In this document: in pieces, positions 8,818-27,800 of the stretch | Layout of the letters: the number at the start of each line of letters is the position of its first letter | Position numbering within the stretch: the first letter of the stretch is position 1 | Assembly (NCBI GenBank): GCA_900696685.1 | Contig: CAADHA010000169.1 | Location: 1 to 64,000, forward strand | From: an uncultured Planctomycetota bacterium | GTDB lineage: Bacteria; Planctomycetota; Phycisphaerae; Phycisphaerales; UBA5793 | Direction: 5' to 3' | DNA: 64,000 nucleotides | Program-made: the position numbers and the translations under genes | The notes under the pieces: model-generated | Databases searched by the model: none | Seen by the model: only the letters and a program-made list of their open reading frames with translations | What the model was told of the DNA's origin: nothing

Positions 8818-9003
8818 TCATCGGACTCCAATGACCTCCGTCGTCGTCACCCGCCTCCCGCAATGCCGACACTCGCGCCGCCTGCGGATCGCTCCAAACG
8901 GAATCCGTCGGGTGTAGATCACCTCGAAGTGGGCGCAGCCGCACTTCGGGCACAGAATGCCTCGCGGCTCCGACTCGCGTTTCGTCTTCGTTTCGCTGCT
9001 CAT
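8818..9003 (-). CDS. Phage zinc-ribbon protein
   Basis: 61 residues with CPKC...CRHC pairs (CPKCGCAHFEVIYTRR, then RRRECRHCGRRVTTTE), a single zinc ribbon resembling the N-terminal ribbon of NrdR and small Ogr/Delta-type phage activators. The ATG overlaps the terminase stop by four bases, so it is translationally coupled. A DNA- or RNA-polymerase-binding regulatory role is possible. Confidence 0.6.
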   Translation of the reverse strand: MSSETKTKRESEPRGILCPKCGCAHFEVIYTRRIPFGAIRRRRECRHCGRRVTTTEVIGVR

Positions 9004-11300
9004 CGCCGCCCTCCCTGGAGTTCGGAAAGGCGGATACGGCGCTTCGGAGCCGGGCGCGTGTCGGTTCCGTAGAGCACGGCGCCCTGCATCGACGCGGCGA
9101 TGGCACAGCCCACGAGGCAGTCGAGCCAGTGGTTGTCGAGGCCGTCCACGCGGAGTTTCCACTCATCGACCGCCCGGCCGCGACCCTGCGTCTTCACGCG
9201 GTACTCGCTCGTGAGGTGCTCGGCGAGGAGTTGATGGTTCGTCGTCGTGCGATTCGATGATCCGCCCGTGCGGCCGAACAGCGCCAGGCAGCCCGGATCA
9301 CCCATCGGCACCGCCAGGCGCGCCTGCACGAACGATTTCCAGTAGTTCGTGTCGAACACGACGTGGCGCACGGCCCGCTTGCCGGTGATGACGGGAATGC
9401 GCCAGTTCAGGCCAACGCGGTCGCCTCGCTTGCGCTTGTACTCACTGAACGGAATGCTCGAAGCGCCGACGTACCGGCCGTGGCTGGGCATGACGAGGTT
9501 CGCGTACCGGCTCTGGCGGCAGAACTGGTAGACGACATCCGACGATTGCCCCCAGTTCGCATCGATGAGACAGCGGTCGATGCGCACCATCGCGCCGTCA
9601 TCGCGTTTCCACTCCCGGCTGAGCATGGAGTCGGTCAGTCGCTCGAGCCCGGCGTAGACCGCGCCTTCGAGTCCCGCATGCGGCGCGGCCGCCGCGAGTG
9701 TTCGCCGGATGTCGCGGAGGGTGAAGTACGCGTGGGGGTCCTTCTGGTCCGGCTCGGTGCCGTAGTCGATCACGTTGCCCGTGAAGTCCTCCTCCCACGC
9801 GACAATCAACCAAAAGAGCGCCTTGGCCTGCACGTCGATGAACATGGTCAGCAGGGATGAGCCGATGGGCACCTCGCCGCGCTCGTGGCCGCTCAACTTG
9901 GCGCAGTTCTGCTCGGCGGTGAGCAGGTCTTCGTCGAGGGCCGTGCTCTCGGGCAATGGTTCGTTCTGGTATTCAGCCCAGAACGCGGCCTCATCCTGGA
10001 GCCGCAGGTTCATCGCGTGCTGGATGGCGCTGAGTTCATCGTGGTTGAACCGGTCCGGCCAGGCGACCTCGGCGCCCTCGTCCATCTCGGCGCGGCGCTG
10101 CCCGTAGAACTCGGTGGCGCGGGTGATGCCCTCGTCGGCGCGCAGCCCCTCGGCCCGCAGACGCGCGTACTCCGCCCACAGTTGTTCGCGCGTGGGGAAG
10201 GAGTACACCATCTTCGTGCGCTGCCCCTGCCACTGCGGATGCTTGTCGCGATCGAGCAGGCGGTCGGCCAGATCGTCGGGCCGCACCACGGTGAGCGTCA
10301 TGAGCCCGGCGATCTTGCGGCCCGGGCCGGCCAGGCCGAGGATGGCGCCGGCGAGGATGCGTTCGCGCGTGGCGCACTGCGATGGCGACCGTGCTGATTC
10401 ATCCGTCTGCGGATCGTCGATGAGCACCAGCGAGGGGCGGACGCTGCGGCCGTCGGGGCGCTTGTACTTCATGCCGCGGATGCGGCCGGTGATGCCGGCG
10501 ACACGGATGATGCCGCCGGATGGCAGCGAGCCAGGCACCGTCGGCAGGACGATCTCGTGCGCCGTCCATCCAATGTGGGTCTGGCTGCCTTCGAAGAGCT
10601 GCCCGGCTGCGCGCTGGTGGATGCCGTCGAGACAGTGGATGGGGAAGCACGCCTCGGGGAAGTCGTGCAGGAGGGCTTCGCTGTTCTCGAGTTCGGCCTT
10701 GATGGATTCGAGCATCTGGCCGGCGTGCTCTTCATCGGAGCCGATGAGGGAGACGAACTCGCGGTGGCCGTAGAGCAGGGCCCAGAGGCAGGCGATCTCG
10801 CAGAGGCTGGTCTTTCCCGAGCCGCGCGGCATGGCCATCGCAAACAGGCCGCCTTCGAGGACCGCCTGCTCGATGCGGGCGATGACCTTGAGGTGGTCCG
10901 GCGACCACGCCAGGTGAAAGGTCTGCGGGAAGTAGGTCTCGCAGAAGAGGCGGAAGTTGCGGCGACAGGCTTCCTTGCGACCGGCGTCGATGATCTCGGG
11001 CAGGGCGTCGATGTCGCGGCCGGTGAGAGACTCGGGCAGGTGGCGGCTCCGCACGGCGTCGGCATTCTCATCGAACGAATCATCTTCGGCGGCATCCTCA
11101 CCGGCCAGGCGCGCGTGGCGCTCGATCACCAGCCATGCGGTGTAGCGGAGCAGATCGACGGTCTTCCCGTCGCCGATGCGATAGCCGGCGCGCGTGCGGT
11201 GGCGGTGCAGCTGCCGCTCGCTGATCACCTCGCCCAGCGGTGTGCTGTTGAGCAGGCGGCAGAGTTCGGCCGGCTTGAGGCTGCGCGGGTCAATCGCCAC
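9000..11300 (-). CDS. Phage terminase large subunit
   Basis: 766 residues. The ATPase that packages DNA: Walker A PRGSGKT at 158-164, Walker B LVLIDDPQ with Asp295/296, and a coupling motif region LTVVRPDD. The C-terminal half carries an RNase H-like nuclease domain with FIDVQ, RCLIDANWG and a terminal NHWLDCLVGCAIA segment whose Asp residues fit the three-acid nuclease site. The N-terminal 70 residues resemble the adjacent small protein and may be a duplicated HTH. GTG at 11300 was chosen because GGAGG lies five bases upstream; the GTG six bases earlier overlaps that site. Confidence 0.85.
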   Translation of the reverse strand: MAIDPRSLKPAELCRLLNSTPLGEVISERQLHRHRTRAGYRIGDGKTVDLLRYTAWLVIERHARLAGEDAAEDDSFDENADAVRSRHLPESLTGRDIDALPEIIDAGRKEACRRNFRLFCETYFPQTFHLAWSPDHLKVIARIEQAVLEGGLFAMAMPRGSGKTSLCEIACLWALLYGHREFVSLIGSDEEHAGQMLESIKAELENSEALLHDFPEACFPIHCLDGIHQRAAGQLFEGSQTHIGWTAHEIVLPTVPGSLPSGGIIRVAGITGRIRGMKYKRPDGRSVRPSLVLIDDPQTDESARSPSQCATRERILAGAILGLAGPGRKIAGLMTLTVVRPDDLADRLLDRDKHPQWQGQRTKMVYSFPTREQLWAEYARLRAEGLRADEGITRATEFYGQRRAEMDEGAEVAWPDRFNHDELSAIQHAMNLRLQDEAAFWAEYQNEPLPESTALDEDLLTAEQNCAKLSGHERGEVPIGSSLLTMFIDVQAKALFWLIVAWEEDFTGNVIDYGTEPDQKDPHAYFTLRDIRRTLAAAAPHAGLEGAVYAGLERLTDSMLSREWKRDDGAMVRIDRCLIDANWGQSSDVVYQFCRQSRYANLVMPSHGRYVGASSIPFSEYKRKRGDRVGLNWRIPVITGKRAVRHVVFDTNYWKSFVQARLAVPMGDPGCLALFGRTGGSSNRTTTNHQLLAEHLTSEYRVKTQGRGRAVDEWKLRVDGLDNHWLDCLVGCAIAASMQGAVLYGTDTRPAPKRRIRLSELQGGRR

Positions 11301-11568
11301 GAGCACCTCCGTTGGCGCTGGCGCCCTCGGCCATGTCTCTGACCAACCACGCGGCGTAGTGCGCCAGGTTGATCGTGCCGTCGGGGTTGGTTGGCGCGCC
11401 GTGGTCGATGTCGCGCTCGATCATCGCCTCGCTCACCGGCTGACCGGCGACGCGCGTCAACGTGCGCGCCGTGTCGGTCACCGATAGAGCGGCGGGATTC
11501 AGCCCGGCGGCGCGCTCGGCTTGCCGTGAGTCTGGTCGAACGGGTTGTTCTTCAAGCGGCGTCGACAC
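11290..11568 (-). CDS. Putative terminase small subunit / HTH protein
   Basis: 92 residues encoded immediately upstream of the large terminase and overlapping it by 11 bases. The segment LSVTDTARTLTRVAGQPVSE followed by IERDIDHGAPTNPDGTINL looks like a winged-helix or Nu1-like DNA-binding module, and the last part (HYAAWLVRDMA) is mirrored by YTAWLVIERHA near the N-terminus of TerL. It probably recognises the packaging site, but this is inferred from position. Confidence 0.5.
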   Translation of the reverse strand: MSTPLEEQPVRPDSRQAERAAGLNPAALSVTDTARTLTRVAGQPVSEAMIERDIDHGAPTNPDGTINLAHYAAWLVRDMAEGASANGGARGD

Positions 11569-12898: not shown

Positions 12899-12907
12899 CC
12901 AACGACG

Positions 12908-14026: not shown

Positions 14027-14029
14027 GTG

Positions 14030-14953: not shown

Positions 14954-14976
14954 CCCGCCAACCCGTCTCACCCATT

Positions 14977-15007
14977 CACAGCCGCAGCGCCCGCCGCCGC
15001 GGCTGTG
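14977..15007 (+). terminator. Hairpin ending the rightward accessory cluster
   Basis: CACAGCCGC and GCGGCTGTG form a perfect nine-base stem around a 13-base GC-rich loop, 23 bases after the stop of the last accessory gene. No strong T-run follows, so it is a GC-type or Rho-assisted terminator candidate. Confidence 0.45.
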
Positions 15008-15043
15008 TCTGCGGGAATGCCCAACCCTCCGCTCGCCAGTAGA

Positions 15044-15727
15044 ATGAACATCATGCTCAAGTGGGCACGTCGCATCGCCATCTTCCTGCTGCTCGGCGCG
15101 ATCGCGAATGTTGCGGTCGCATGGGGATGCGTGATCGCACACGGCGAGATTACAGACAGCGGGCGACTGGCGGAGCATCGCGAGAAGAGTCGCATTCTCC
15201 TGCTCCGCATCATCTCGAAGCCAGGCTACGGGTATGCGGCCGTGCAAACTTCGTGGTCGGTCAATTCCCCGCGATTCACATACGAACGCAGTGCAACCTA
15301 CGATGGCGGCATCTGGTGGCCAAGTGGGTTGCCTGAACGGACTGGCGGGCACATCGGATACGGATGGCCGATGCTGAGCCTCAGTGCAATCATCGCGCCG
15401 GACCGTGGCGTCGGTCTGGAGTCGGTAATCCGCACCGGAACTCCAGTCACAGTCTGGGGCGGATTCATGTTGAGGCGCACCGAGTTTGTTTATCCGGCCC
15501 GTGACGCTATGCCCATGATCTTCCCGTTCCGACCGCTTTGGTTCGGTCTTGTGTTCAATACGCTCCTCTTCGCTCTTGTACTTGCGTTGCTCGCCCTTGG
15601 TCCCGCGGCGCTGAGGCGCCTGCTTCGGATTCACCGCGGTCAGTGCCCCGCCTGCGCCTACCCGCGCGGCGTCTCGCCCATCTGCACGGAATGCGGCGAG
15701 CCGCTGCCGGGCGTCGTCGCGAAGTAG
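15044..15727 (+). CDS. Planctomycete-type membrane protein with C-terminal zinc ribbon
   Basis: About 227 residues: an N-terminal transmembrane segment (IAIFLLLGAIANVAVAW), an extracytoplasmic middle region rich in aromatic residues, a second transmembrane segment (FGLVFNTLLFALVLALLALG), and a C-terminal cytoplasmic Cys4 motif (CPACAYPRG...CTECGEPLPG). The tail is the recurrent planctomycete CxxCGYxL..CPECG motif; a related protein lies at 57,229. Finding it inside the prophage suggests capture of a host gene. Start codons at 15,044 and 15,053 are equally possible; no clear ribosome site is seen. Confidence 0.6.
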   Translation: MNIMLKWARRIAIFLLLGAIANVAVAWGCVIAHGEITDSGRLAEHREKSRILLLRIISKPGYGYAAVQTSWSVNSPRFTYERSATYDGGIWWPSGLPERTGGHIGYGWPMLSLSAIIAPDRGVGLESVIRTGTPVTVWGGFMLRRTEFVYPARDAMPMIFPFRPLWFGLVFNTLLFALVLALLALGPAALRRLLRIHRGQCPACAYPRGVSPICTECGEPLPGVVAK

Positions 15728-15753
15728 TTCAAGCATTCGTACGAGCGTCGCCC

Positions 15754-17118
15754 TCACCGCATCCTCTCCTCGCGCGGCGTCATCGGGATCGGCGATTTGG
15801 CTGTGCGCTCCAGCACGGCTGGCCTGCCGGTGAAGCGCTGATACCTGTCGCAGATGAGATCTGCGTAGGCCGGATCGATTTCCATGAGGAACGCGCGCCG
15901 CTGCGTCTGCTCGGCGGCGATCAGAGTCGAGCCCGATCCTCCGAAGAGGTCGAGAACATTCTCACCGGCCTTCGACGAGTACTGCAACGCGCGCACGGCG
16001 AGTTCAGCAGGCTTGGCCGTTAAGTGCTCCATCTGGTTCGGCGGGATCTTCTTGATGTGCCAAAGGTCAGCGACGTTGTTCGGGCCGTAGAAGCGGTGTG
16101 CAGCGCCGAGTTTCCAGCCGTAGAAACATACCTCGAACGCGCCCATGTAGTCTTTTCGTGTCAGGACGGGGTGCTGCTTATCCCAGATGATCGCTTGGCT
16201 GAAGTACAGACCCGCGCGCTTGAGCGGCCCCGGATAGTTGCCGAGGTTGGCGTAGCCGCCCCAGCAATAGAAGCCTCCGCCGGGGATGAGCACGCGAGCC
16301 ATGTTGCCGAACCACGCATCGAGCATCTCCTCGAACGCTTCATCGCTCACGAAGTCGTTTTCAAGCGGCCTGTCCTTCGCTCGCATCTTGCGCGTGGTCC
16401 GGCGCTTCTCGCCCTGGCGCGCGACATCGAACGACTGGTGATGGGTGCGCCGCTTCTTCTTCGAGGCCGTGAACGACGAGTTGCCGGCGGCGATCGCGTT
16501 GTTGCTGCGCGGTTCAACTTTGACGTTGTACGGCGGATCCGTGTTCACCAGGTGAATCGGCTGGCCGTCGAGCAGTCGATCGACATCGGCCGCGCTCGCG
16601 CTGTCGCCGCACAGCAATCGGTGCTCACCGAGAATCCAAAGGTCGCCGCGCTTTGTGATCGGCTCATCGGGCGGCTCAGGGATCGCATCGGGATCGGTGA
16701 GCCCCTCCTGCACGCCCGGGTCGAAGATCTTGGCCAGGTCGTCGGCGCTGAAGCCCAGCGCCGACCAGTCGAATCCGGCGCCCTGGAGTTCGGCCATCTC
16801 GATCGGCAGCAATTCCATGTTCCACTCGGCCAGTTCGGCCGACTTGTTGTCTGCGATGCGGTACGCGCGCACCTGCTCGGGCGACAGATCGGTTGCGATG
16901 TGGATCGGAACCTTCTCGAGGCCGAGGCGCTCCGCGGCCTTCCAGCGCGTATGCCCGCAGATGATGACGCCGTCGCCATCGACGACGATGGGCTGCCGCC
17001 AGCCGAAGGCCTGGATGCTGTTCATCACGGCCTCGACGGCGTCGTCATTGAGCCGAGGGTTCTTCTCGTAGGGCTTGATCTCGGCCAGCGGCCGCAGTTC
17101 GACCTTGAACGCGTTCAT
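15754..17118 (-). CDS. ParB-domain DNA methyltransferase (N4/N6 type)
   Basis: 454 residues. The N-terminal 90 residues are a ParB/Srx-like nuclease-fold domain (LRPLAEIKPYEKNPRLNDDA, CGHTRWKAAERLG). The methyltransferase part has the catalytic motif DPPY at 194-197 and the AdoMet-binding GGSGS at 393-397, the beta-class order. It probably methylates adenine-N6 or cytosine-N4 in phage DNA. No restriction endonuclease is adjacent, so it is likely an orphan enzyme protecting the phage or regulating packaging. AGGAG lies nine bases before the ATG, and the start overlaps the upstream gene as ATGA. Confidence 0.85.
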   Translation of the reverse strand: MNAFKVELRPLAEIKPYEKNPRLNDDAVEAVMNSIQAFGWRQPIVVDGDGVIICGHTRWKAAERLGLEKVPIHIATDLSPEQVRAYRIADNKSAELAEWNMELLPIEMAELQGAGFDWSALGFSADDLAKIFDPGVQEGLTDPDAIPEPPDEPITKRGDLWILGEHRLLCGDSASAADVDRLLDGQPIHLVNTDPPYNVKVEPRSNNAIAAGNSSFTASKKKRRTHHQSFDVARQGEKRRTTRKMRAKDRPLENDFVSDEAFEEMLDAWFGNMARVLIPGGGFYCWGGYANLGNYPGPLKRAGLYFSQAIIWDKQHPVLTRKDYMGAFEVCFYGWKLGAAHRFYGPNNVADLWHIKKIPPNQMEHLTAKPAELAVRALQYSSKAGENVLDLFGGSGSTLIAAEQTQRRAFLMEIDPAYADLICDRYQRFTGRPAVLERTAKSPIPMTPREERMR

Positions 17119-18056
17119 GAGTCCGTTCTCCTTGTGCTGGTGGGTTTGCGGCCCGGGCGCGATTCCGCCGCCCCGGTGGCCGCCATGTTGCCGCCCACGT
17201 TCGCCCCTGTCGCGAGATGTGGCGTAGCGGCGTAGTTCCGGCCGCCTGCCGTGGGCACATCGCGCCCGGGCCCAAACTCGTCGCCCACCATCGGCCCGCC
17301 GTGGGCCGGCAGAGGCAGCAGGCCGATCTCGCGCTCCGAGCGCGGGGCCGCGGCGAGGCGAACCTGCATCGCGTGCGCTCCCTCGCGCCACGCGAGCGCG
17401 CAATCGGCATCGGCGTCGATCGCCGGCGGCTCCTCCGCCGGCGCTTCCGTCAGCGCCGCGCGCCCAGCAGCAGTGAGGCTGTACCACACCCGGCCGTGCA
17501 GATCGGCGCCGCTTTGGAGCCAGCCGCGGACCAGCGCCGGGATCGCCGCCTCCTCAAGTACCGACAGTCGATGGCGGTTGGCGCGCCCGGCCTCGTCGCT
17601 CCCGCACGCGGCCCAGAACGGCGGCGTGCCGGCCAGCGCCCACTCCGCCGTCCATCGCGTGCCGAGGTGCATCATCGTGGCCCGCGCATCACCGAAGGCG
17701 GCGAGGCGCTGACATACATCCCGGCCATCGGACCAGCACGGCGCGCCAGCCAGCGAGCAGGCCCGCTCGATCCCCGTGTCGAGCAGCCGCGTAGCGATCA
17801 CCTTCGTCTTCTCGACGCGGCGAGTCAGCAGGCCGCGCCGCTCCAGTCGCCCGAGCGCCTCGACATTCTCATCGCGCTCATCACGATCGCGGCCCTGATG
17901 CCGCCAGCGCAGACCAGCGCCGGACCGAAACGATCGCCGCGCCAGGTACGCCGCCGCCGCGCCGCCGCCACCCCACGGGCCGCGCCACGGCGCGAACACC
18001 GCCCACAACTCGCCCACCAGGCGACAAATCAATGTGTCATCAACACTTGCGCTCAT
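17115..18056 (-). CDS. Conserved prophage protein of unknown function
   Basis: 313 residues, starting at an ATG eight bases after GGAGGACC. The middle (ENVEALGRLERRGLLTRRVE, LVRGWLQSGADLHGRVWYSL, TAAGRAAL) has the shape of repeated winged-helix units, so a DNA-binding or replication-linked role is likely. It is co-transcribed with the methyltransferase, overlapping it by four bases. The last 70 residues are Gly/Ala-rich and probably disordered. Confidence 0.5.
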   Translation of the reverse strand: MSASVDDTLICRLVGELWAVFAPWRGPWGGGGAAAAYLARRSFRSGAGLRWRHQGRDRDERDENVEALGRLERRGLLTRRVEKTKVIATRLLDTGIERACSLAGAPCWSDGRDVCQRLAAFGDARATMMHLGTRWTAEWALAGTPPFWAACGSDEAGRANRHRLSVLEEAAIPALVRGWLQSGADLHGRVWYSLTAAGRAALTEAPAEEPPAIDADADCALAWREGAHAMQVRLAAAPRSEREIGLLPLPAHGGPMVGDEFGPGRDVPTAGGRNYAATPHLATGANVGGNMAATGAAESRPGRKPTSTRRTDS

Positions 18057-18213
18057 GTTGCGGTCCTCCGCAGCGCGCGCCAATCCAAAAAGTCGGACAG
18101 GGTCGCGTTATCATGTGTCTCTCTACTTTGGCGGCTGTTCCCGCGGGCCTGCTGGCACGCCATTTGCTGGGAAGTACCTATGCCGATGGGTGCCACCGTC
18201 GCGCACCGTCGAA

Positions 18214-18312
18214 GACCGTCACGACGGTCCCTATTAAGCGCACGCGTGCGCGCGGGCGCGCGTGTGCGCGCACGACACGATGTTGAATACAGTGGCGACC
18301 GTCGTGACGGTG
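18214..18312. promoter_or_regulatory. Paired palindromic operators flanking an alternating CG tract
   Basis: GACCGTC-AC-GACGGTC at 18,214-18,229 is a perfect inverted repeat with seven-base arms. A near-identical site, GACCGTC-GT-GACGGTG, lies at 18,297-18,312, the reverse complement over 15 bases. Extra ACCGTC half-sites occur at 18,195 and 18,205. Between the two sites is a run of alternating purine-pyrimidine CG/CA steps (about 18,239-18,273). The region lies upstream of the leftward gene at 17,115-18,056, so it is probably a repressor-bound promoter. The binding protein is unknown. Confidence 0.5.
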
Positions 18313-18339
18313 TGCAGCGGTAAGCGGCGGTGGCGTGCT

Positions 18340-20763
18340 TCACTGAACACTCCCTTCGAGGCCGATTCCCTCGTAGAACGGGACATCGCCAGCGCCACGA
18401 CGCCGCTTGATTCCAGGAACGGCGGCCGCCAGGTCTCGGCCGAACGACATCTTGCTGCTGACGACGTGGCGGCCGTCGCGCTCGCACCACCCCTGCCACG
18501 CCTTGTAGAGGTCATCCACCCATGCGCGGCAGCCCGGTGCGACGGTGCAGCACTCGCGGACGAAGGCACCGACCGGCGACGCGAGATCCTCAAGATCGCG
18601 AATGGCGTCGGCGACGCTTTCCGGCTGCACGAATCGGCCGCGCGCCTTGAGTCGCTTCCAGCCTTCGATGGCCCACAGCAGGATGCCGGGGAGTTCAGCT
18701 ATGAGTTGATCCGTGAGCGTCAGGTCTTCCTGGCCATAGAAGGAGTTGGTCAGCCGCAGCACCAGGAATCGACCGGCCAGCGCGGTGCTGGCGTCGTTGA
18801 GACGCGGCAGTTCGTTTGTGAGGAACATGAACCTCGTCGGGAGCTTCATGCTGATGGAGCCGAGGAACTTGCGATCAACGCTGAGCGTGTCCTCGCCCGA
18901 GATGCACAGAAGTCGCTCGACCACGATGCTGATGTTCTCACCGCCGAAGCGGGCATCGCTGACGATCGCGAGAGATTTGCCGATCAGGGGTTGCAGTCCG
19001 AAGTTGCCGGCGAGACTACTCGTTGTCGGCCCGACAACATTGCCTTCGCCGACGAGACGCCGCAGGATGCGACCGATCGTGCCCTTGCCCGATCGCCGCG
19101 GCCCGACGAGCAGGAGCATCTTCTGCTGGCTGGTGTCGCTCGTGAGGCAATACGCCATCCACTCCTGGAGCAGCTCCATCGACTCGATGTCATCGCCGAA
19201 GAGTTGTTCCATGAATTTGATCCAGCGCTCGGGCGGCGCGGGATCAGGTTCGTAATCGAAGTCGAGCGCGTTGACGGTGAACAGCGCCGGCGTCGGCTTG
19301 AAGATGCGACCCGTGGGAATGTGGAAGTTCAGCGACTTGCAGGGCAGAATCTCCAGCGCCGGTGGACGATCGGTCCGCGAGTCGAGCCATGAGGGGGTGT
19401 TGATTGACGCCGGCAGGTGGACGAACGAACGGATCGTGTCCAGCGCCTGCTTGACGGTAGTGGGATTGGACTCGAACGCTGCGAGTTCCAACCCTCCGGT
19501 CCCTTTGCTGAACACGTACCGCAGCGCCTGGTGCAGCCACGGCTGGAGCAGGTGCTTGAGGTATTCATCTTCGACCTGGCAGTACCGGTTGTCGCGCCAA
19601 TGCATGATCAGTCCGCCGTAGGCGTGGATGGTCCTACCCTCGTCATGCTGGTGAAACTCGCGGACGAACGCCTCGGCGGTGGGCAGGGTGCGCCTCGGCG
19701 ACAGCACGAGCCGGCCGGTTTCGGGGTCGCGCTGGCCGAGGGGCACGAATCCGGCATCATCGCCGCTGGCCGGGGCATCGTCTTGCGTTGCACGGGTTTC
19801 GGTGCTCGGGCTTTCCGCTTTCACGCTGCCGTTGGGTGTGCAGCCTGCGTCGGAGTGCGCGCGGCCCGGCGCGACCGGACGCGGCGCATCACGCAGCCAG
19901 CCATAAGGCTTGTCGTGCGACTTCGTTGCCGCATCGTCGACCTTGTGTCGCAGTTCCTTCTCGCTCCACGGCGGTTCACAGCGCGGGTTGTAGCGTTCGA
20001 GCAGCAGCCGCAGCGCAGTTTCCGGATCGAGGCAGAAGCCATGCACCATCGCGGTGGCGGCGGTGTAGGTTGTGTCGTGCCCGCCCTGGCCGGAGATCGC
20101 CGGGTCCATCGCGTCGAGGTAGGCGGTGGCGCGGCGGAGCACCGCCTCGTCGGCGGGTGCGGCAGCGCGGCGCGCCGGACGCGCCGCCGCAGGTGCTGCC
20201 GCGCCGGTGCGAGCAGCAACCGCCCGAGCGAGCCCTTCGACCGCTCTGGCAAGCACTTCGTGCTCTACGGCCGCGGGTTCGCCCGTGAGCCACTCGTAAG
20301 CCTCGCCGGACGGGTGAATGCTCGGCCCGACCACGGTCTGGCAGCCGGTGCTGCGGATCTCGACGATCATCTTCTTCGTGCCGGGAAAGTGGTGCTTTCT
20401 GGTCACCGCGCCCGGGCATCGGTACCACCAATGCGAATTGGGCGCGCTGGCGCGGCCGGTGATCGCGAGCGTCGGCGGCAGGTACTGCGGCGCCAGGTCA
20501 ATCGCCTCCGGGCAGTCGAGATCGACGTCAGTGAGCCCGCCGCTGGGCTCGCCCAGCAGGAGACCGATGTTGCCGCAGCCGCTGAAGTGCTGCTGCAGGT
20601 CGGCGTCATCGAGACGCAAGTCCGGCCACCCCGCGTCGACCGGCCCCTTCTTGCGCAGCGGGATCGGCACGCATCGAAATCCGCGCATCGTGTACGCTCG
20701 GGCGGCGTCGAGCCGGCTCATGCCGTCGTGGACCGATGCGCCGTTCTGTGTCACGGGTTCCAT
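18340..20763 (-). CDS. Phage primase-helicase (PrimPol + D5/SF3)
   Basis: 807 residues. The N-terminal domain (AYTMRGFRCVPIPLRKKGPV, GLLLGEPSGGLTDVDLDCPE, then NSHWWYRCP) is a bifunctional primase-polymerase with the DVDLD metal-binding pair. A primase C-terminal linker follows. The C-terminal half is a D5-like superfamily 3 helicase with Walker A GPRRSGKG at about 554-561, SDARFGGENIS and MFLTNELPRL. It starts and elongates primers and unwinds DNA during prophage replication. The ATG overlaps the previous stop as TGATG. Confidence 0.85.
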   Translation of the reverse strand: MEPVTQNGASVHDGMSRLDAARAYTMRGFRCVPIPLRKKGPVDAGWPDLRLDDADLQQHFSGCGNIGLLLGEPSGGLTDVDLDCPEAIDLAPQYLPPTLAITGRASAPNSHWWYRCPGAVTRKHHFPGTKKMIVEIRSTGCQTVVGPSIHPSGEAYEWLTGEPAAVEHEVLARAVEGLARAVAARTGAAAPAAARPARRAAAPADEAVLRRATAYLDAMDPAISGQGGHDTTYTAATAMVHGFCLDPETALRLLLERYNPRCEPPWSEKELRHKVDDAATKSHDKPYGWLRDAPRPVAPGRAHSDAGCTPNGSVKAESPSTETRATQDDAPASGDDAGFVPLGQRDPETGRLVLSPRRTLPTAEAFVREFHQHDEGRTIHAYGGLIMHWRDNRYCQVEDEYLKHLLQPWLHQALRYVFSKGTGGLELAAFESNPTTVKQALDTIRSFVHLPASINTPSWLDSRTDRPPALEILPCKSLNFHIPTGRIFKPTPALFTVNALDFDYEPDPAPPERWIKFMEQLFGDDIESMELLQEWMAYCLTSDTSQQKMLLLVGPRRSGKGTIGRILRRLVGEGNVVGPTTSSLAGNFGLQPLIGKSLAIVSDARFGGENISIVVERLLCISGEDTLSVDRKFLGSISMKLPTRFMFLTNELPRLNDASTALAGRFLVLRLTNSFYGQEDLTLTDQLIAELPGILLWAIEGWKRLKARGRFVQPESVADAIRDLEDLASPVGAFVRECCTVAPGCRAWVDDLYKAWQGWCERDGRHVVSSKMSFGRDLAAAVPGIKRRRGAGDVPFYEGIGLEGSVQ

Positions 20764-21083
20764 CAGTCCGGTCGCTCCTGCACCATGCGAATGGCCGCGA
20801 TCAGGCAGGGAATGTCCTCCGCGGCGATCACGACCAGCAGGCGTGAGCGGCGGCGACGTGCAAGAAGGGCTGGAACCCGGTTTCCGGCGGCTCTCCGGGC
20901 ACGATTCCATTCGCGCCAGAAGTCCGGCAGATCGACCTGCACTTCCACTACGGCAACACCTGGAAGGTCGGCATCGGGTTCATCCGGTCGCGCACCGGCT
21001 GGCGCACGGCGAACGCTCGCAAGCAAGTCGTGCGGAGGGGCAGGGTGGCGTGATTTCGGCTTGGCAGGGCGTCGTTGCGTCAC
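20763..21083 (-). CDS. Small prophage protein preceding primase
   Basis: 106 residues, basic, with a C-terminal segment SRLLVVIAAEDIPCLIAAIRMV that looks like a strand plus helix. It is coupled to the primase gene by TGATG and to the DUF1580 gene by a four-base overlap, so it belongs to the early operon. No family is recognised. Confidence 0.45.
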   Translation of the reverse strand: MTQRRPAKPKSRHPAPPHDLLASVRRAPAGARPDEPDADLPGVAVVEVQVDLPDFWREWNRARRAAGNRVPALLARRRRSRLLVVIAAEDIPCLIAAIRMVQERPD

Positions 21084-21496
21084 AGACCCGCCTCCTCGAG
21101 TTCTTGCTCGGCTTCGAGGTGGCGGCGCTGCGACTCGTGCATCGCGTTGCGCGGGGGCCTGCGACGGAGGGGTCGCCGCGGCGAGCGGGCCTCAGCGGCG
21201 GGCGCTTCTCGCTCTGGCCGATCGAAATGGACCGCATCAGCCTCGGCGAGAGCAAGGCCAAAGTCATGCAGCCATTGACGCGTGGTGTAGATGCGCGAGC
21301 CAAAGCGCATATGCTTGAGCCGGACACGCTGGCCGGACGCCGACTTGACGCCCTCCCGGCACCACCGCCAGACGCAGTTGGATGATGGCCGACCGGGTGC
21401 CAGCCTCGCGGCTTGGGAGAGCGTGATGTACTCCTCCGTCGCCAGCGCGTCAGTGCTCGTGTCGCCCGACTTCCCTGTCAAGTATTGCCCGTCCAT
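21080..21496 (-). CDS. DUF1580 HTH/excisionase-like protein
   Basis: 138 residues. The core (EEYITLSQAARLAPGRPSSN, CVWRWCREGVKSASGQRVRL, RIYTTRQWLHDF) matches DUF1580, a planctomycete family with an excisionase-like winged helix that senses substrates through a Trp/Arg-rich recognition helix. It is the first gene of the leftward early operon and is the best candidate for the excisionase or early regulator of this prophage. GAGGAG precedes the ATG. Palindromic operators lie about 75-100 bases upstream. Confidence 0.75.
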   Translation of the reverse strand: MDGQYLTGKSGDTSTDALATEEYITLSQAARLAPGRPSSNCVWRWCREGVKSASGQRVRLKHMRFGSRIYTTRQWLHDFGLALAEADAVHFDRPEREAPAAEARSPRRPLRRRPPRNAMHESQRRHLEAEQELEEAGL

Positions 21497-21568
21497 GCGA
21501 AACTCCTCACCGGTGTGGCTCGATGTTGAGCCACTTGCGATGAGCGATTTTCAACACGGCTTTCGGGT

Positions 21569-21682
21569 GGTAACTCGGTAACTCGAGTTACCGCGCCGGG
21601 CCACAACGACAGCGGCCCTACAGCAACGAGAACGCCGCTCGCAGTCGCGAGATTTTTCTCCGCTACCGTAATGTGGTAACTC
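21569..21682. promoter_or_regulatory. GGTAACTC operator cluster
   Basis: GGTAACTC occurs at 21,569, followed immediately by the perfect 16-base palindrome GGTAACTCGAGTTACC (21,577-21,592), and again at 21,675-21,682. This 275-base gene-free region separates the leftward early operon from the rightward ATPase-nuclease gene, so the repeats probably bind a repressor that controls both directions. The same GAGGAGTTTCG leader precedes both divergent start codons. Confidence 0.55.
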
Positions 21683-21771
21683 AGAGATGACTCGCGAGAG
21701 AGCGATTATCGCAGGCGGCCGAACCACCATGGCCGGACGCATAGTCCGGCGACCGATTGAGGAGTTTCGAA

Positions 21772-24700
21772 GTGACGCATCAGGCCAGCACGACAGGGCT
21801 CAACGCGCCGTCGACGCCTGAATCGGGGCGTGCGTTTGCGTCGGCAGAAGCCGCTGAGCGAGCCGTAGCAAGGATCATGTCCGATCAACGCGATCTCTAC
21901 GCCCGGCAGCCAAAGGAGCTCGTCGGCCACGCGAACAGGGAGCTTGCCGCCATCGAGGGCTATCGAGGGCGGCAGTTGCTCGAACTTCTCCAGAATGCTG
22001 ATGACGCCGCTGAGCACTCAAGTGGCGGACGCCTGCTTGTCGAACTGCTCGATGACTGCGTGGTGGTCGCCAATTCCGGGTCTGCCTTCTCCGCGAGCGG
22101 CCTTGAGTCCCTCGTCATCAGCGATTGCAGCCCCAAGCAGCTCGACCGGAACAAGTACATCGGTTGCAAGGGTCTTGGATTTAAATCGGTGCTGACTTGG
22201 TCTGAGTGCCCACTTCTGTCGAGCGGCCACCTATCGGTGGCATTCGACCGGTCGAAGGCGCTCCTCCAAATCAATGAGCTTGTTGCGACGTTCCCGGCCG
22301 TGCGAAGCATCGTGGACGACTTCACTCGCGCAGTGGGCTATCCGCCTGTGCCGATAATGCGATTCCCGTTTGTCCCGCCTGCCGCCGATCTCGCCCATCG
22401 CTACCGAGACCATGGATTTGATACAGTTCTCGTGCTCCGCCTTCCGGATGACACTCGACGTGACGCCGTGCGGCGCGATGTTCTCAACCAACTGGACGGC
22501 CTCCAGACCGAGGCACTGCTGTTCTGCCGATCCCTAACGGAGATCGAGATGCGAGGCACCGCGCCGCGGCGCTGGGAGATCCTTCGAGAAGAGGTCAGCA
22601 GGACCACGACGCGACTCATCGTTCAGAGCTCGGGCGGAGACTCGCTATGGACCCTGCACCGTCGCGAGGGGCGACTTGCTCCGAGTGAACACTCGCGCCA
22701 ACGGCGAGCTCGCGACTATGAGACCGCGATCGCCGTGCCCGACAAAACCGAGCCGGCCGCGGATCGGTGCCTGTGCGTGTTTTTTCCTACAAAGGACGCT
22801 CTGCCGCTTCCAATGGTGCTCCACGCGACGCTTGAGGTGAGCGACGATCGCAATCGCATCCACGACACTGAGGGCAACCGGCAAGTGCTCGGCGCGCTCG
22901 CTACGCAGTTGGCGGATGTTGTCGCCGCAGAGGCTACTCGCGCTCAGCCGCGCCGCGCCCTGAAACTCCTCGACGGCTTGGACCAGGTCGATCCGGAGCT
23001 CAAGCGGCTGGGTTTCTTGGAGCGTGCCGTGGTGGAGCTGAAGGAGCGGCACATCTTTCCTCGTATCGACGGACACCTGGGTCCCGCTGCGAAGGCATAT
23101 CGCACACCACATGATTCATGGCATCCGCTGCTCACGCCCAAACACTTCCCCGACGTGCTCAGCGTGCGCACGGACGAGAAACTCACCGGTGTCTTGAATC
23201 TCTTCGAGATTGGCTGGTTCGGGCAACCTGAGCTCCTCCGACGGTTGCGTTCGCAGCTTGAGGAGATGGAGCCATTGCCTGCCGGCGAACTGGTTGGCCG
23301 GTTGCTGGCAACAGAGCGACTTGGCAAGCTGCCGCTTGGCGCTTTCATACTGACCGCAAGAGGCACATTCGTCGCGCCAGACGAGCAGTGCTTTTTCACG
23401 CCCGGTGTGAATCCGTACCCGGTACCCGCGTGGGTACAGGAAATCCAGTTCGTGCATCCCGAGTTTCAGCGCGGATTGCAGTCCGCCGCCGGGGCATCGA
23501 GCATTCGCGCCCTGTCCGGACAGCTTGAGGCCCGAGAAGCTCGTGTTGATGAATACCGTCTGGACACGGTCGTCAGGGCATTGGTATCGCGCGCGCGACA
23601 AGCGGACGAGCATGCGCAGGCAGGCCGCGTTCAAGAGCTCCTGAAGTGGCTGTTTAACACGACCAACGGACAGCCCGGCATCCTCTCGGGCGTCACAGTG
23701 CCAATCGTCGATCGGAACGGCCACGTCATCGCTCCCGGTGATTGCTACCTGGGGCCTGAATATCCCGGGGGCGACATGCTGCATCGACTTTACTCGGGCA
23801 TCGAGGGCGTGCGGTTCTCGGGTTCGCCCAATCAAGTCGGCCTGGAGGACGCGGACATTCGTCGCGTTGCTGAGTTCTTGGTCGCGCTCGGTGTCCATGA
23901 CCGGCCAAGAACGGTGCCGCTTTCTCACCCTGAGAGCGAGCGCCTTGCGCTTCGGGCTCTGGAGCAGCATGATTATCCAGGGGTGGTCCGCGGGGAGGAG
24001 TGCGTGGATCTCGTTGCCGCGCTCTGCCTCTGCAAAGAGCTACGTGTCGAGGGAGCGACTGTCCCGCACCACTTTGGGCGCCTGCTTCTCGAAGCGGACC
24101 CGACGGGCCTTGTGGCCTACCTACTGACGGATGGCCAGCATTTTCTCGCAAGCGACATCATCGAGGACGCATACTTCGTGGCGCGTAAGTCTCGCGAGCA
24201 GAAGATGTGGGTGGACCGCGGCATCCGGATTCCCAACCCGGTGATGCTGGCCCTTCGTTCGACCAACTGGGTGCCGACTGTTGACGGCACTCGCTGCAAG
24301 CCGGGCCAAGTGATCCTGAGCGGCGTTGCGGGCCGCTTGCTCCGCGGGCTTTACTCGCAACACGCCATCGACATCAACGATCCGGTCATTCGCCGAAGCG
24401 GCGGCCGACGCGCCGTGAATGGCTTGCTGACACGATTGGGCGCGATCTCCTCTTTGGAAGCGGTCGACGCGGACTCGCTTTACGAGCTATTGAGCCGACT
24501 TCCCCAGGACGATCCCGACGGCCAGCACGCGCCGGGTGTCTACCGCACGCTGATTGAAGCGGGAGTCATGACTGAGGACAGCCTGTCCCGGCGGCAGTTC
24601 TTCAAGATTGGTCGGGTATGGTCGCGCGTTCGCGGAGAATCGAAGTACCTGCCGGTCTCCGAGGTCAGATACAACGCCAACGTGATGGTGCCGCGTGTCA

Positions 24701-26016
24701 TCGAGCAGCACCTGAAGCTGGCAGAGTTCCCGCGTCGAAAGTCGACCAAACTGGTGCGCGAAGTGTTCGGGGTAGAGCCGCTGGCAACCAATGACATCGA
24801 GATCGCGCTGGTTGAGAACGGCACGGAATACGCGCCCACAAGCGAGGATGCCAACGCCGCGTTCAGGCGCGCCCTTCCGTACCTTTACGCCATTCGACTA
24901 GGAAAGAAGCTCGACGATGACAATCGGGAGCGCAACCTGTTGCACCAAGCGGAACTCCGGCTATGCACTCGGATGCGGGCGGAGGCCAAGCTCCCGAGCG
25001 GGGAGACGCAGACTATCGAGATGGACAGCCAAGGGGACCGTTTGCTTCTCGATCGGACGCTCTACATGATCGATGACTTTGATCGTGGGGCGCCGTCGCT
25101 CGTGCGGTTCTGGCAAGGCGTGGCTGCTTTGGTTGCGGAGCTGTTGGGAACGGATGTCGCTGCGGAGGCGGCCAACGTTTTTCGGTGCCGGACTGTGGCA
25201 GAGATGGAGGACGTTGTCCGAGGGCTTGTGGACGACGATGCCGAGGGGAAGCTCGTGCAGGCGCACGAGCGGTTCCACCTAGAGGCGGACGAAGAACCAA
25301 CGACGCCGCGACCGTTGCTCCCGCCCGACGAGGAACCCAAGGACGGATCGGAGTCGTCCGGCGGCGATGCGGACGAGCCGCTGGCCCCGGGGTCTGACGA
25401 CGAGTTGGGGGGGGAACCTGCGGCGGGCGCTGGCAACGTTACCTTCCAGCCGGTGCAACCGCCGAAGCGAAGGACGGGCACGCGCCGAAAGCTCGTGATC
25501 ACTACCAGACCGGGCTCCGGTGTGGCGCACCGGCGCGGGCCGCTCGCGACGGAGGTCGTGACGTTCCGAGTGGTCGAGGCCTACGAACGACTGGAGGGGC
25601 GTTACCCGATCCGCGTCAGCCACCTCCACGGCGCGGAGGCGTTCGGTTGTGACATTATCAGCGTCGGGCTGGCAGAGGTGTACGAAGCTGTGCTGGCCGC
25701 GCGGGAGGTACAAGAGGCTCGTATTGCCCGGTACATCGAAGTCAAGGGGCGGAGCAGCCGCAGCGGCGAGATCGAGCTCACCGATAACGAGTATCGAAAG
25801 GCTGAGTCGGCGCGGGAGCGGTACTTCTTGTACCGCGTGTTCCGCGATCCCGACGACTCGGCTCGCTTCGAGGTGGCGATCCTCGGCGACCCGGTGCATT
25901 CCGATGCGGTCAGGCAGGTCACGCGGTTCGATCTATCTGACGGTTCCGGCGCAACGTGGTACGCGATGATCGACGTTCCCGAAGACGAGAATGGGCCGTC
26001 GGCCGAACCGCAGTAG
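21772..26016 (+). CDS. Sacsin/HSP90-type ATPase fused to DUF3883 nuclease-like domain
   Basis: 1,414 residues. The N-terminal domain is a GHKL ATPase of the sacsin type: the N-box ELLQNADDA (Asn75), a NSGSAF G1 segment and the lid GCKGLGFKS at 131-139. A long middle region (about 250-1,180) without clear known domains follows, then an acidic Pro/Glu linker (about 1,180-1,235). The C-terminal domain matches DUF3883: GCDIIS (Asp1294) and IEVKG (Glu1323, Lys1325), the layout of a PD-(D/E)xK nuclease core. It lies opposite to phage genes, between DUF1580 and integrase, a common cargo site. An ATP-gated nuclease acting in phage defence is inferred. GTG at 21,772 has GAGGAG upstream; a TTG 15 bases earlier overlaps it. 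Confidence 0.75.
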   Translation: MTHQASTTGLNAPSTPESGRAFASAEAAERAVARIMSDQRDLYARQPKELVGHANRELAAIEGYRGRQLLELLQNADDAAEHSSGGRLLVELLDDCVVVANSGSAFSASGLESLVISDCSPKQLDRNKYIGCKGLGFKSVLTWSECPLLSSGHLSVAFDRSKALLQINELVATFPAVRSIVDDFTRAVGYPPVPIMRFPFVPPAADLAHRYRDHGFDTVLVLRLPDDTRRDAVRRDVLNQLDGLQTEALLFCRSLTEIEMRGTAPRRWEILREEVSRTTTRLIVQSSGGDSLWTLHRREGRLAPSEHSRQRRARDYETAIAVPDKTEPAADRCLCVFFPTKDALPLPMVLHATLEVSDDRNRIHDTEGNRQVLGALATQLADVVAAEATRAQPRRALKLLDGLDQVDPELKRLGFLERAVVELKERHIFPRIDGHLGPAAKAYRTPHDSWHPLLTPKHFPDVLSVRTDEKLTGVLNLFEIGWFGQPELLRRLRSQLEEMEPLPAGELVGRLLATERLGKLPLGAFILTARGTFVAPDEQCFFTPGVNPYPVPAWVQEIQFVHPEFQRGLQSAAGASSIRALSGQLEAREARVDEYRLDTVVRALVSRARQADEHAQAGRVQELLKWLFNTTNGQPGILSGVTVPIVDRNGHVIAPGDCYLGPEYPGGDMLHRLYSGIEGVRFSGSPNQVGLEDADIRRVAEFLVALGVHDRPRTVPLSHPESERLALRALEQHDYPGVVRGEECVDLVAALCLCKELRVEGATVPHHFGRLLLEADPTGLVAYLLTDGQHFLASDIIEDAYFVARKSREQKMWVDRGIRIPNPVMLALRSTNWVPTVDGTRCKPGQVILSGVAGRLLRGLYSQHAIDINDPVIRRSGGRRAVNGLLTRLGAISSLEAVDADSLYELLSRLPQDDPDGQHAPGVYRTLIEAGVMTEDSLSRRQFFKIGRVWSRVRGESKYLPVSEVRYNANVMVPRVIEQHLKLAEFPRRKSTKLVREVFGVEPLATNDIEIALVENGTEYAPTSEDANAAFRRALPYLYAIRLGKKLDDDNRERNLLHQAELRLCTRMRAEAKLPSGETQTIEMDSQGDRLLLDRTLYMIDDFDRGAPSLVRFWQGVAALVAELLGTDVAAEAANVFRCRTVAEMEDVVRGLVDDDAEGKLVQAHERFHLEADEEPTTPRPLLPPDEEPKDGSESSGGDADEPLAPGSDDELGGEPAAGAGNVTFQPVQPPKRRTGTRRKLVITTRPGSGVAHRRGPLATEVVTFRVVEAYERLEGRYPIRVSHLHGAEAFGCDIISVGLAEVYEAVLAAREVQEARIARYIEVKGRSSRSGEIELTDNEYRKAESARERYFLYRVFRDPDDSARFEVAILGDPVHSDAVRQVTRFDLSDGSGATWYAMIDVPEDENGPSAEPQ

Positions 26017-26043
26017 GCGACGCCGCCGTTCGACCCTCCCGAG

Positions 26044-27381
26044 CTATCCGACGCGTCGCATGATTTCGGCCACCTTTGACTGGTCCCGTTCGGCGTAGAC
26101 GGCGTCCGTGACTCGGGCGCTGGCGTGCCCGAGGACGAGGGCAGACGCTTCGAGACCGTGTTCGCGGCGGTACAGAGTCGCGGCCGTGTGGCGGAGTTGG
26201 TATGGGAACCACCGGTGTTCCTTCCGCCATGCGTCGAGAGCATCCTTCAGTTCGTCCGTTACCAACCGATTCCGCCACTCCTCGCGGATCTCGTCGTCTC
26301 GCTTCGCGAGCGGCGGGGGAGGCGGGAACGCCACATCGCAGGCGTACTGCACTGCGCGGTAGTATGCCCGCGCGTCGTAGCGCTCTCCAGCTGCTTTCTT
26401 CGGCTCGGCTCTGCGGTTAGTGCCGGCACGGTTGCCGCATGAGAGTGGTGTCTTCCTCGCTGCGGCCCGGGCCGCACGGCGCTCCACATCTGCCTCGGCG
26501 GGGCTGAAGAGATATGCCTCCGGCGCTCGTTTCATGAACGGCGCTAGCACGGCCTGCGCCTTCGGGCCAAGGAAGAGCACGCGGTCGTGGCCCATGTACT
26601 GCGTCTTGTGGCGCTCCAGCCTCGCCACCCACACGCCGTCTGCGGCCGTGGCATCGATGTCGCATGGCCGCAGGCTCAGCACCTCGTCGGGTCGCGCGCC
26701 GGTGAGCAGTTGGAGCCGCACAGCAGCCGCGACAGGGCTGGCCATGAACGGCAGCGTCTGCTCGACCACCTCCACCGGTACTGGTTTCACGACGCGGCCG
26801 ACGCGAGCCGCGCAGCGGCCGGGTTTGAGCGGATCAACCGACAACAGTTCCACGCGCACTCTCGCCGTGACGAGTTCCTGCGATGCGGCCCACTTGAAGA
26901 GTCGACACAGCCGACGCACTTGGGCGTTCGCATACGTGATGCCCCATGCGCGCCGCCCGTGCTCTTCGTCATCGCGGACCATCTGGTCGCGCAGACGCTG
27001 CAGGCGTTTCGGGCCGAATGCCGCCGCCGGCGTCGAGCCGTACGACCGTCGCAGAAGCCGGATCAGAGATCTGTGATGGTCCTGCTCGCGCTTGTTCAGA
27101 TGGGTGCCGCGCGTGCGCCAGAAGCGGGCGCACAATTCAGAGATGGTGATGCCATCGCCCTCGCCCTCGCCGCCGGCGGGTGGCTTCTCGAAGTTGGCCT
27201 CGAAGAGCCGCCTTCCGTTGGCTTCCCATTCCGCGATGACGCGGTGGTACAACTCGCGGCTTTCGGGCGATCCTGGCTCACCGAGCCAGTAATCCCGTCG
27301 CTGCTTGGTGACGGCGTCGGTGAGAGTGACGATGGCCTGGTTGCGGTCGTGACGCTTGCGATAGCCCGGGGTCTTGGGCAC
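26044..27381 (-). CDS. int: Prophage tyrosine integrase
   Basis: 445 residues. A tyrosine recombinase: an N-terminal arm/core-binding region (ISELCARFWRTRG...), the first catalytic Arg in TGARPDEVLSLRP, the HxxR-type segment YQLRHTAATLYRREHG, LGHASARVTDAVYAE with the conserved His and the nucleophilic Tyr. The catalytic domain carries a long Lys/Arg/Pro-rich insert (about 290-375) not usual in the family. GTG at 27,381 was chosen for its GGGAGG site. The gene lies beside the 3' end of tRNA-Asp and is convergent with the ATPase-nuclease gene, 27 bases apart. Confidence 0.9.
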   Translation of the reverse strand: MPKTPGYRKRHDRNQAIVTLTDAVTKQRRDYWLGEPGSPESRELYHRVIAEWEANGRRLFEANFEKPPAGGEGEGDGITISELCARFWRTRGTHLNKREQDHHRSLIRLLRRSYGSTPAAAFGPKRLQRLRDQMVRDDEEHGRRAWGITYANAQVRRLCRLFKWAASQELVTARVRVELLSVDPLKPGRCAARVGRVVKPVPVEVVEQTLPFMASPVAAAVRLQLLTGARPDEVLSLRPCDIDATAADGVWVARLERHKTQYMGHDRVLFLGPKAQAVLAPFMKRAPEAYLFSPAEADVERRAARAAARKTPLSCGNRAGTNRRAEPKKAAGERYDARAYYRAVQYACDVAFPPPPPLAKRDDEIREEWRNRLVTDELKDALDAWRKEHRWFPYQLRHTAATLYRREHGLEASALVLGHASARVTDAVYAERDQSKVAEIMRRVG

Positions 27382-27402
27382 GGGGCACCTCCCGAAACTC
27401 CA

Positions 27403-27422
27403 GCGCGGTGCGCGCACCGCGC
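27403..27422. promoter_or_regulatory. 20-base perfect palindrome upstream of integrase
   Basis: GCGCGGTGCGCGCACCGCGC reads identically on both strands and lies 22 bases before the integrase start. It probably binds a regulator of integrase expression or acts as an attP arm site. It is GC-rich, so some chance of coincidence remains. Confidence 0.4.
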
Positions 27423-27461
27423 GGAAATCGTCTCGAGCTGCGCCCCCGACCGTCGGGAGGT

Positions 27462-27478
27462 ATCCGTAACCTACGGAT
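27462..27478. promoter_or_regulatory. Inverted repeat next to attachment site
   Basis: ATCCGTA, a three-base ACC spacer and TACGGAT form a perfect seven-base inverted repeat, 20 bases from the tRNA-Asp 3' end. Its place between integrase and the tRNA fits an integrase or excisionase arm-binding site. Confidence 0.4.
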
Positions 27479-27497
27479 TCAGCAAGGTTTTCAGAAA

Positions 27498-27571
<74 letters not shown>

Positions 27572-27800
27572 GAGGTCGGGGTGCGGCGGGTTTGGCACGA
27601 AGGGTCGGGTCTGATGGCTCCCGGTCGGGGCTTGACTCCCTCCCGGTTTCGACCCGGAATCCCGACGGCCTTTCCCGGCCGCGAAATGCCGCAAAATGTA
27701 CCGCACCTGCCCTTCCAGTCAAGACAGCCGACTGACTGAGTTGTCGCCCTCAGCGGCGCCGGCTTCTGCAGAATGCGCCGAACTATCACCCATCGACAAG

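Follow-up and report, generated by a model that had tools for sequence, protein, structure and literature searches.

We analysed the first 64,000 nucleotides of contig CAADHA010000169.1 (GenBank assembly GCA_900696685.1), which we call the window. The host is a planctomycete, probably of the class Phycisphaerae. The window begins at the contig start, within a prophage whose left end falls outside. Our subject is a plus-strand gene of this prophage (21772..26016), which encodes a protein of 1,414 amino acids. The protein matches PADLOC's TmtA model PDLC03964 (E = 1e-181; residues 31-1134, model positions 7-1103 of 1538), and eight further TmtA models match below 1e-5. We take TmtA to be the protein of Tiamat, which Millman et al. 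reportedly described in 2022 as a single-gene anti-phage system. The initial annotation of this locus proposed a new candidate defence system. The strong match to TmtA speaks against novelty: judging from its sequence, the gene is a further member of the known Tiamat family, not an unknown system. The main new result is its location in a swappable slot.

The open frame that ends at 26016 could start with TTG at 21757 (1,419 residues) or with GTG at 21772 (1,414 residues). GTG is the likelier start because a probable Shine-Dalgarno sequence, GAGGAG (21759..21764, plus strand, recognised by eye), lies ahead of it, with its last base 7 nucleotides upstream. GC content by codon position (0.71/0.46/0.73) is gene-like, with the third position below that of most genes in the window. 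Frame, start, and codon-position GC thus agree with the gene as first annotated, and the residues named then (N75, the lid IGCKGLGFKS at 130-139, D1294, E1323, and K1325) are all in place. (Residue positions for matches to Pfam, PADLOC, and NCBIfam profiles follow the 1,419-residue numbering.)

A cargo slot between the integrase and DUF1580 genes

Profile matches confirm that the TmtA gene lies between a DUF1580 gene (21080..21496, minus strand; PF07618, 4.8e-6) and a tyrosine integrase gene (26044..27387, minus strand; the end is approximate, and the frame is open to 27528). We compared this region to a prophage from the same genus (L167), leftward as far as window position 12481 or so. Positions 12481-21625 align in three pieces at 86-92% identity (with 15053-15864 unaligned), and positions 26057-27571 align at 91%. 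Nothing aligns for 21626-26056. This interval (21626..26056), with no blastn match in L167 and with L167 flanks that match at 86% and 91%, is the swappable cargo slot. In L167, the slot holds ietAS instead, that is, IetA (1.7e-68) and the subtilase IetS (6.8e-36).

An integrase probe yielded three loci in viral contigs, matches in 70 of 392 genomes of the phylum (E ≤ 0.001), and, among 400 genomes of the order, 62 genomes with matches at E ≤ 1e-60 (78 places). For a census of the slot, we took 41 of the 78 places (our own included, and mostly the nearer ones) and the three viral contigs, or 44 loci, and kept 34. (We dropped L135, which is identical to L168; L203, which has a reversed 28% match; and L178, L184, L188, L190, L192, L194, L200, and L205, where no DUF1580 gene was found.) The 34 non-redundant intervals between integrase and DUF1580 span 179 to 5,334 bp. 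Nine of them hold a system that PADLOC recognises, six by scan (the window, L136, L167, L175, L185, and L186) and three by similarity (L134, L179, and L206). Besides L167, ietAS is found in L186 (IetS, 3.4e-33; its IetA is 83% identical to that of L167). The viral contig L136 carries Mokosh (MkoA, 1.1e-216; MkoB, 1.5e-52), L185 carries ShosTA (ShosT, 2.8e-20; ShosA, 4.7e-66), and L175 carries PDC-S39 (1.6e-37), whose gene recurs in L179 and L206 at 85-86% nucleotide identity. TmtA is present in two of the 34 slots, the window and L134, and in both it stands alone between DUF1580 and integrase, as a single-gene system would. In L170, the slot holds Hen1 and Pnkp-ligase RNA-repair genes, and the PADLOC scan gave only a methyltransferase-region match to mads_2. 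Scans of L168, L169, L171, L172, L181, L187, L197, L199, L201, and L202 gave no match. The same flanks thus enclose different defence systems in related phages, as in a phage defence hotspot, and the interval is an exchangeable cargo slot in related planctomycete phages. Prophage cargo was what the initial annotation had taken the gene to be. A literature search on planctomycete prophage defence in an open-licence library turned up no paper about such a slot, judging by titles and abstract openings, and on that basis the slot may be unreported.

The census also bears on whether TmtA serves the phage itself, as a chaperone- or topology-type ATPase that aids replication, integration, or excision and has no part in defence. 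The gene does lie between the integrase and the DUF1580 and primase genes, and the block from DUF1580 through TmtA to the integrase is 82% identical in nucleotides to a second phage (L002/L134), compared with 71% for the primase and 70% for the methyltransferase. But the L167 phage, which is 86-92% identical where aligned, does without TmtA, as do all of the slots other than the window and L134, and homologues elsewhere sit among defence genes (see below). We consider a housekeeping role very improbable, and because of L167 we rejected it as the main explanation.

The edge of the slot beside DUF1580 has recurring sites. An operator-like element, GGTAACTCGGTAACTCGAGTTACC (21569..21592), keeps its place next to DUF1580 in related slots even when the cargo differs, and a second GGTAACTC site (21675..21682) starts 90 bp from the start of the inverted copy at 21585. 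The window has five copies of GGTAACTC, versus 0.37 expected, and four of the five are in the gap between DUF1580 and TmtA. Across the census, 16 of the 34 slots, whose cargos differ, have GGTAACTC at the DUF1580 edge, and in these the DUF1580 match begins 80-107 bp after the start of the last site. The pair with 90-bp spacing is present in 13 of these 16 slots, again with unlike cargo (the 13 include two groups of close relatives, L168, L176, L177, and L180 on the one hand and L179 and L206 on the other). All nine slots with a recognised system are among the 16. In L136, L167, L170, L185, and L186, whose cargo is directed toward DUF1580, the sites lie beyond the cargo's end. Because the sites stay at the DUF1580 edge even there, we assign them to the DUF1580 side and so to the genes of the phage itself. 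The proposal that TmtA has operators of its own was therefore rejected: the sites recur whatever the cargo (16 of 34 slots) or its direction (five slots whose cargo ends before them). With about 90 bp between the nearer GGTAACTC and the start of TmtA, these putative sites may act on both promoters.

Several other slots deserve mention. A 1,165-bp insert (L168, 3595-4760) is 98-99% identical in L176, L177, and L180. By their labels, the four genomes are from different genera and two families, and the identity points to recent spread of the phage. The slot of L181, which has GGTAACTC sites, holds a gene for a 356-residue protein (11075-12145, minus strand) with no PADLOC match, and the slots of L196, L197, and L199 hold genes for 411-415 residues as cargo. 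In L053 (9543-12339), a remnant of DUF1580 and the 5' end of TmtA, 78% identical in nucleotides to the window, runs into an HsdR-like type I restriction subunit, beyond which lies a ThiF/DUF6791 gene. L053 is a single metagenome assembly, so this is either a real chimera or an artefact.

The rest of the prophage is as follows. A tRNA-Asp(gtc) gene (27497..27572, minus strand) is the probable attachment site, because a truncated copy of its 3' half (27495-27539) is present in L053, in which ARAGORN detects no tRNA. By profile matches, the minus strand also encodes a phage primase/helicase (18340..20910), a fusion of a ParB N-terminal domain to an N6/N4 DNA methyltransferase (15754-17487), a GpA-type terminase large subunit (9000..11306), and, leftward of the terminase, portal, head protease, head decoration, and tail proteins (1449-6944). 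A primase probe of viral contigs found no relative. TmtA is on the opposite strand from DUF1580, primase, methyltransferase, integrase, and the head and tail genes, as first reported, though the prophage has further genes on the plus strand (at 7573-8808 and inside 11684-15727). The first of these, a 411-residue open reading frame (ORF) between portal and terminase in a region of low GC (~58%), has no match in Pfam or PHROG and is perhaps a second cargo site. A plus-strand gene with a HARE-HTH domain (12971-14026) is 93% identical in L167. The initial annotation's statement that no partner gene adjoins TmtA also stands. We rejected the ParB-methyltransferase as a partner, since it is found in phages with other cargo (L167 and L168). 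It is a core gene of the phage lineage and may mark phage DNA.

The ATPase and NOV_C regions of the protein

We modelled residues 1-1183 of TmtA from an alignment of 39 sequences (mean predicted local distance difference test score (pLDDT) 86.4; predicted template modelling score (pTM) 0.51). A Foldseek search with this model gave 37 matches in the PDB at E ≤ 0.001. Among these are HtpG, HSP90B (the best, 1.4e-5), TRAP1 (3.6e-5), the sacsin SR1 region (2.9e-4), and MORC3 (8.6e-4). Sequence profiles run against the PDB reached sacsin only at 0.61. NCBIfam's sacsin ATP-binding domain matches at 7.3e-17, and Pfam's SACS falls below its cut-off (24.1 bits versus 32.8 required). The GHKL/sacsin ATP-binding core (around residues 57-160; 21940..22251, plus strand) includes E71, N75, D78, N101, G103, K122, and the lid at 130-139. 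Residues E71, N75, D78, N101, G103, K122, G131, G134, G136, and R360 are invariant in all 39 sequences, the window's included. The aspartate of the HSP90 adenine-binding motif appears to be replaced by the invariant N101. As in HSP90 and sacsin, there is an N-box, a glycine lid, and a second domain of HSP90 type. The model thus indicates that the N-terminal and middle regions have an HSP90/sacsin-like fold with an intact ATP site, and a sacsin/HSP90-type GHKL ATPase, as first proposed, is what the NCBIfam match, Foldseek, and the conserved site all point to.

The two domains are joined by about 80 residues (around 1170-1250; 25279..25521, plus strand). Our models extend to residue 1183 and resume at 1230, and pLDDT is low at 1173-1183 and 1230-1251, so these residues look like a flexible tether where they were modelled.

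At the C-terminus, Pfam's NOV_C matches residues 1266-1368 (2.2e-11), and PADLOC's HmaA and PDC-S36 match weakly in this region. Pfam, a hidden Markov model (HMM), our structural model, and conservation together place a NOV_C/DUF3883 domain, similar to PD-(D/E)xK nucleases, at around residues 1260-1372 (25549..25887, plus strand). For residues 1230-1414, the model was built on 40 aligned sequences (mean pLDDT 78.9, pTM 0.70). Blocks of residues 1260-1379 have a pLDDT of 82-97 and, by eye, we read their order, H-E-E-H-E(ExK)-H-E-E, as that of PD-(D/E)xK folds. D1294 in a GCD motif (codon 25651..25653, plus strand) and E1323-V-K1325 in the ExK motif (codons 25738..25746, plus strand) are conserved in all 40 sequences of the alignment, the window's included, as are E1272, R1277, R1320, and Y1354. 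Position 1340 is glutamate in 37 of the 40, glutamine in two, and alanine in one. (Alignments of the ~1,400-residue class exclude L091, L092, longer relatives, fragments, and the duplicate L107; A7 also excludes the partial L045, and A6 and A7 exclude the plasmid rows L016-L018.)

Published statements on this domain agree with a nuclease. (Here and below, papers are cited by accession from excerpts.) DUF3883 has been called a novel restriction endonuclease domain in a restriction-modification operon, where it is fused to an SNF2 helicase (PMC3710099), and elsewhere a presumed type II restriction endonuclease (PMC10609329). A literature search on NO VEIN with nuclease found nothing. Motif and topology support a predicted PD-(D/E)xK-like nuclease. 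Of the corresponding claim in the initial annotation, the topology and the conserved D1294, E1323, and K1325 stood up, and a Foldseek match to such a fold at E ≤ 0.001 did not appear.

Relatives and their neighbours

A relative at 87% protein identity is in an IMG/VR viral contig (L002), and one at 86% is in a genome record from the Phycisphaerae (L027). Another genome of the same order has a relative at 66%. A scan of genome contigs reduced 319 candidate stretches to 222 relatives, and we used the best 80 of the 222, which are from many phyla. Of the 392 genomes sampled from the phylum, 12 have a match, and in three the match is full length (both counts include our own). Fifteen plasmid records match, three of them across at least 80% of the query. 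The TmtA gene has no match among the INPHARED phages. The relatives include a class of about 1,400 residues with a clear NOV_C end and one of about 1,500-1,650 residues. The namesake of NOV_C, the plant NO VEIN protein, may be a homologue. In a study of plant metagenomes, every "Tiamat" match was on plant sequences, with no reason stated in the excerpt (PMC12409356). Tiamat has been found in a Pseudomonas island hotspot that also bears phage-like proteins (PMC12629846), so an association of Tiamat with mobile DNA is not new.

We then examined the surroundings of the homologues, with 40 of the 80 genome loci for an N6_Mtase test and 20 of those 40 for a neighbour test (picked mainly for long contigs). 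From the 20 homologues we took 117 neighbouring ORFs (at most three per side), and as controls 119 ORFs that lie 74 kb or more away on the same contigs. The neighbours matched 258 PADLOC families at E ≤ 1e-20, versus 12 for the controls. (These are families, not proteins, and related models are counted repeatedly.) The 25 neighbour families listed comprise type I and II methyltransferases, Septu PtuA/PtuB, Mokosh MkoA, mads_2, Ankyrin, and PD-T4-6. Matches of the control ORFs are mads_3 (four members), mads_2 (two), and ten models with one member each. A non-mobile housekeeping context would have spoken against defence; the neighbours of these 20 homologues are instead enriched in defence families. 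The N6_Mtase test counts toward defence as well: 11 of 89 matches lie within 20 kb of a homologue (by eye) versus 0.95 expected (Poisson P = 6e-9, uncorrected for contig ends). Among the matches listed, those to the integrase family lie within 20 kb of a homologue (by eye) only in G394 and G428, and we did not use them as evidence.

The plasmid contexts are more mixed. We read five loci from the 15 records. L018 has AbiE genes and a cluster of cysteine desulfurase and DUF4007 genes, L019 has Druantia DruA, and L017 has HEPN, WYL, and RecB-like nuclease genes. L016 adjoins conjugation and stress genes, and L020 has no obvious defence gene beside the homologue.

Another explanation is that TmtA serves restriction as an accessory, a MORC-like ATPase-nuclease whose partner is a DNA methyltransferase, in this phage perhaps the ParB-methyltransferase at 15754-17487. 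Prokaryotic MORC/paraMORC ATPases, relatives of MORC, have been proposed to loop DNA in restriction-modification systems (PMC2292703). In L042, L043, and L048, the homologue lies about 0.4 kb past the end of an N6_Mtase match and is followed by an ORF of 2,724 bp, as if in a type I-like restriction operon. But N6_Mtase (PF02384) is within 20 kb of the homologue in just 10 of the 40 genomes (E ≤ 1e-10), which leaves 30 without, and the ParB-methyltransferase is a phage core gene that also accompanies other cargo (L167 and L168). We think that an accessory role is unlikely. The slot cargo of sister phages and the neighbourhoods of homologues agree on the defence role that the initial annotation proposed.

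Proposed mechanism and comparison with known systems

We think it likely that TmtA in the window is a single-protein anti-phage system of the Tiamat family, which a temperate planctomycete phage carries as exchangeable cargo, and that it works as an ATP-gated clamp-nuclease. That defence is by a GHKL clamp tipped with a nuclease is inferred. By analogy to HSP90, MutL, and MORC, a TmtA homodimer would form the ATP-gated clamp. The clamp would sense a product of a competing phage or close on that phage's DNA, and closure would bring the flexibly tethered nuclease domains into action. These would cut nucleic acid of the phage or, with lower probability, of the host, and both the lysogen and the prophage within it would thereby survive superinfection.

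The main rival has host nucleic acid as the target: in abortive infection, the NOV_C domain, once licensed by the sensor, would cut host DNA or RNA and kill or arrest the cell. The predicted architecture of a single protein with a sensor-like N-terminus, a large middle region, and a tethered effector would suit this. So would the weak Foldseek matches of the C-terminal model in the PDB, in which Rep15 (top, 0.017) is followed by TSEN tRNA-splicing endonucleases, Hjc Holliday resolvases, and D212 nuclease; given the tRNA-splicing endonucleases, RNA may be a substrate. But homologue neighbourhoods have many restriction-modification genes, and the published description of DUF3883 as a restriction endonuclease domain in a restriction-modification operon also speaks against abortive infection. 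We judge abortive infection to be possible but doubtful.

Several observations weigh against a Tiamat-family clamp-nuclease carried as defence cargo. First, as regards the nuclease, the C-terminal model has no match at E ≤ 0.001 in either the PDB or BFVD, and the C-terminal sequence profile found no credible solved relative in the PDB (the best was LsrG, 0.02). In alignment A1, which also holds the distant L023, D1294 loses its invariance. The residue counts describe the ~1,400-residue class, from which both alignments (39 and 40 sequences) were drawn; relatives of ~1,500-1,650 residues, outside those counts, have a weak match or none to the C-terminal HMM built from the shorter class. The nuclease call therefore rests on the motif, the topology, the Pfam family, and the published statements. 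Second, the best stretch of the TmtA match stops at residue 1134 (model position 1103 of 1538), with a second stretch counted besides it. Third, 25 of the 34 slots have no system that PADLOC recognises (11 were scanned and 14 were not scanned themselves; of the 14, L176, L177, and L180 have slots 98-99% identical to L168's, and L198 is the same as L197). Fourth, three of the five plasmid homologues have little or no plain defence context. Fifth, in Actinobacteria, Tiamat is said to be almost always chromosomal (PMC10482375).

A broader proposal, which we offer tentatively, is that the slot is general across a widespread lineage of planctomycete phages, that its unrecognised cargos (the 1,165-bp insert and the genes of L181, L196, L197, and L199) are undescribed defence systems, and that Tiamat here clamps DNA under the control of ATP, with a restriction nuclease on a tether. 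The fold at the ATPase end, the motif at the other end, and the invariant residues make Tiamat testable as an ATP-gated nuclease.

Among known systems, Tiamat is the closest. The likeness lies in the TmtA match, the single gene, and the GHKL-type N-terminus. The differences are that the window's gene is on a temperate phage, in the integrase-DUF1580 slot, and that its protein is in the ~1,400-residue class with a clear NOV_C end. A review and two surveys give Tiamat's mechanism as unknown or poorly understood (PMC12926258, PMC10740426, PMC10482375). Prokaryotic MORC and paraMORC proteins are also GHKL ATPases in a restriction-rich setting, and MORC3 is among our Foldseek matches, but they use separate helicase and endonuclease genes (PMC2292703), whereas the window's protein has a nuclease-like domain fused to it. 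The DUF3883/NOV_C restriction endonucleases share the C-terminal domain family; where their SNF2 fusion has a helicase (PMC3710099), the window's protein has a GHKL ATPase. HSP90/TRAP1 and sacsin SR1 share the fold of the ATPase and of the next domain (by Foldseek), with a conserved N-box (E71xxxN75xxD78) and glycine lid. They differ in that template modelling scores on the query are low (0.09-0.22) and in that the window's protein has an added nuclease-like domain at its C-terminus.

In planctomycete phages, the slot is a natural site with defined borders, where new anti-phage genes can be chosen by position alone, as has reportedly been done in P2 and P4 phages. In the defence hotspots of P2/P4-type phages, fixed core genes are said to flank interchangeable defence systems. 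The slot resembles these hotspots in its fixed core flanks and interchangeable systems, ShosTA included, and differs in that it belongs to planctomycete phages, has integrase and DUF1580 as its borders, and has repeated GGTAACTC sites at one edge.

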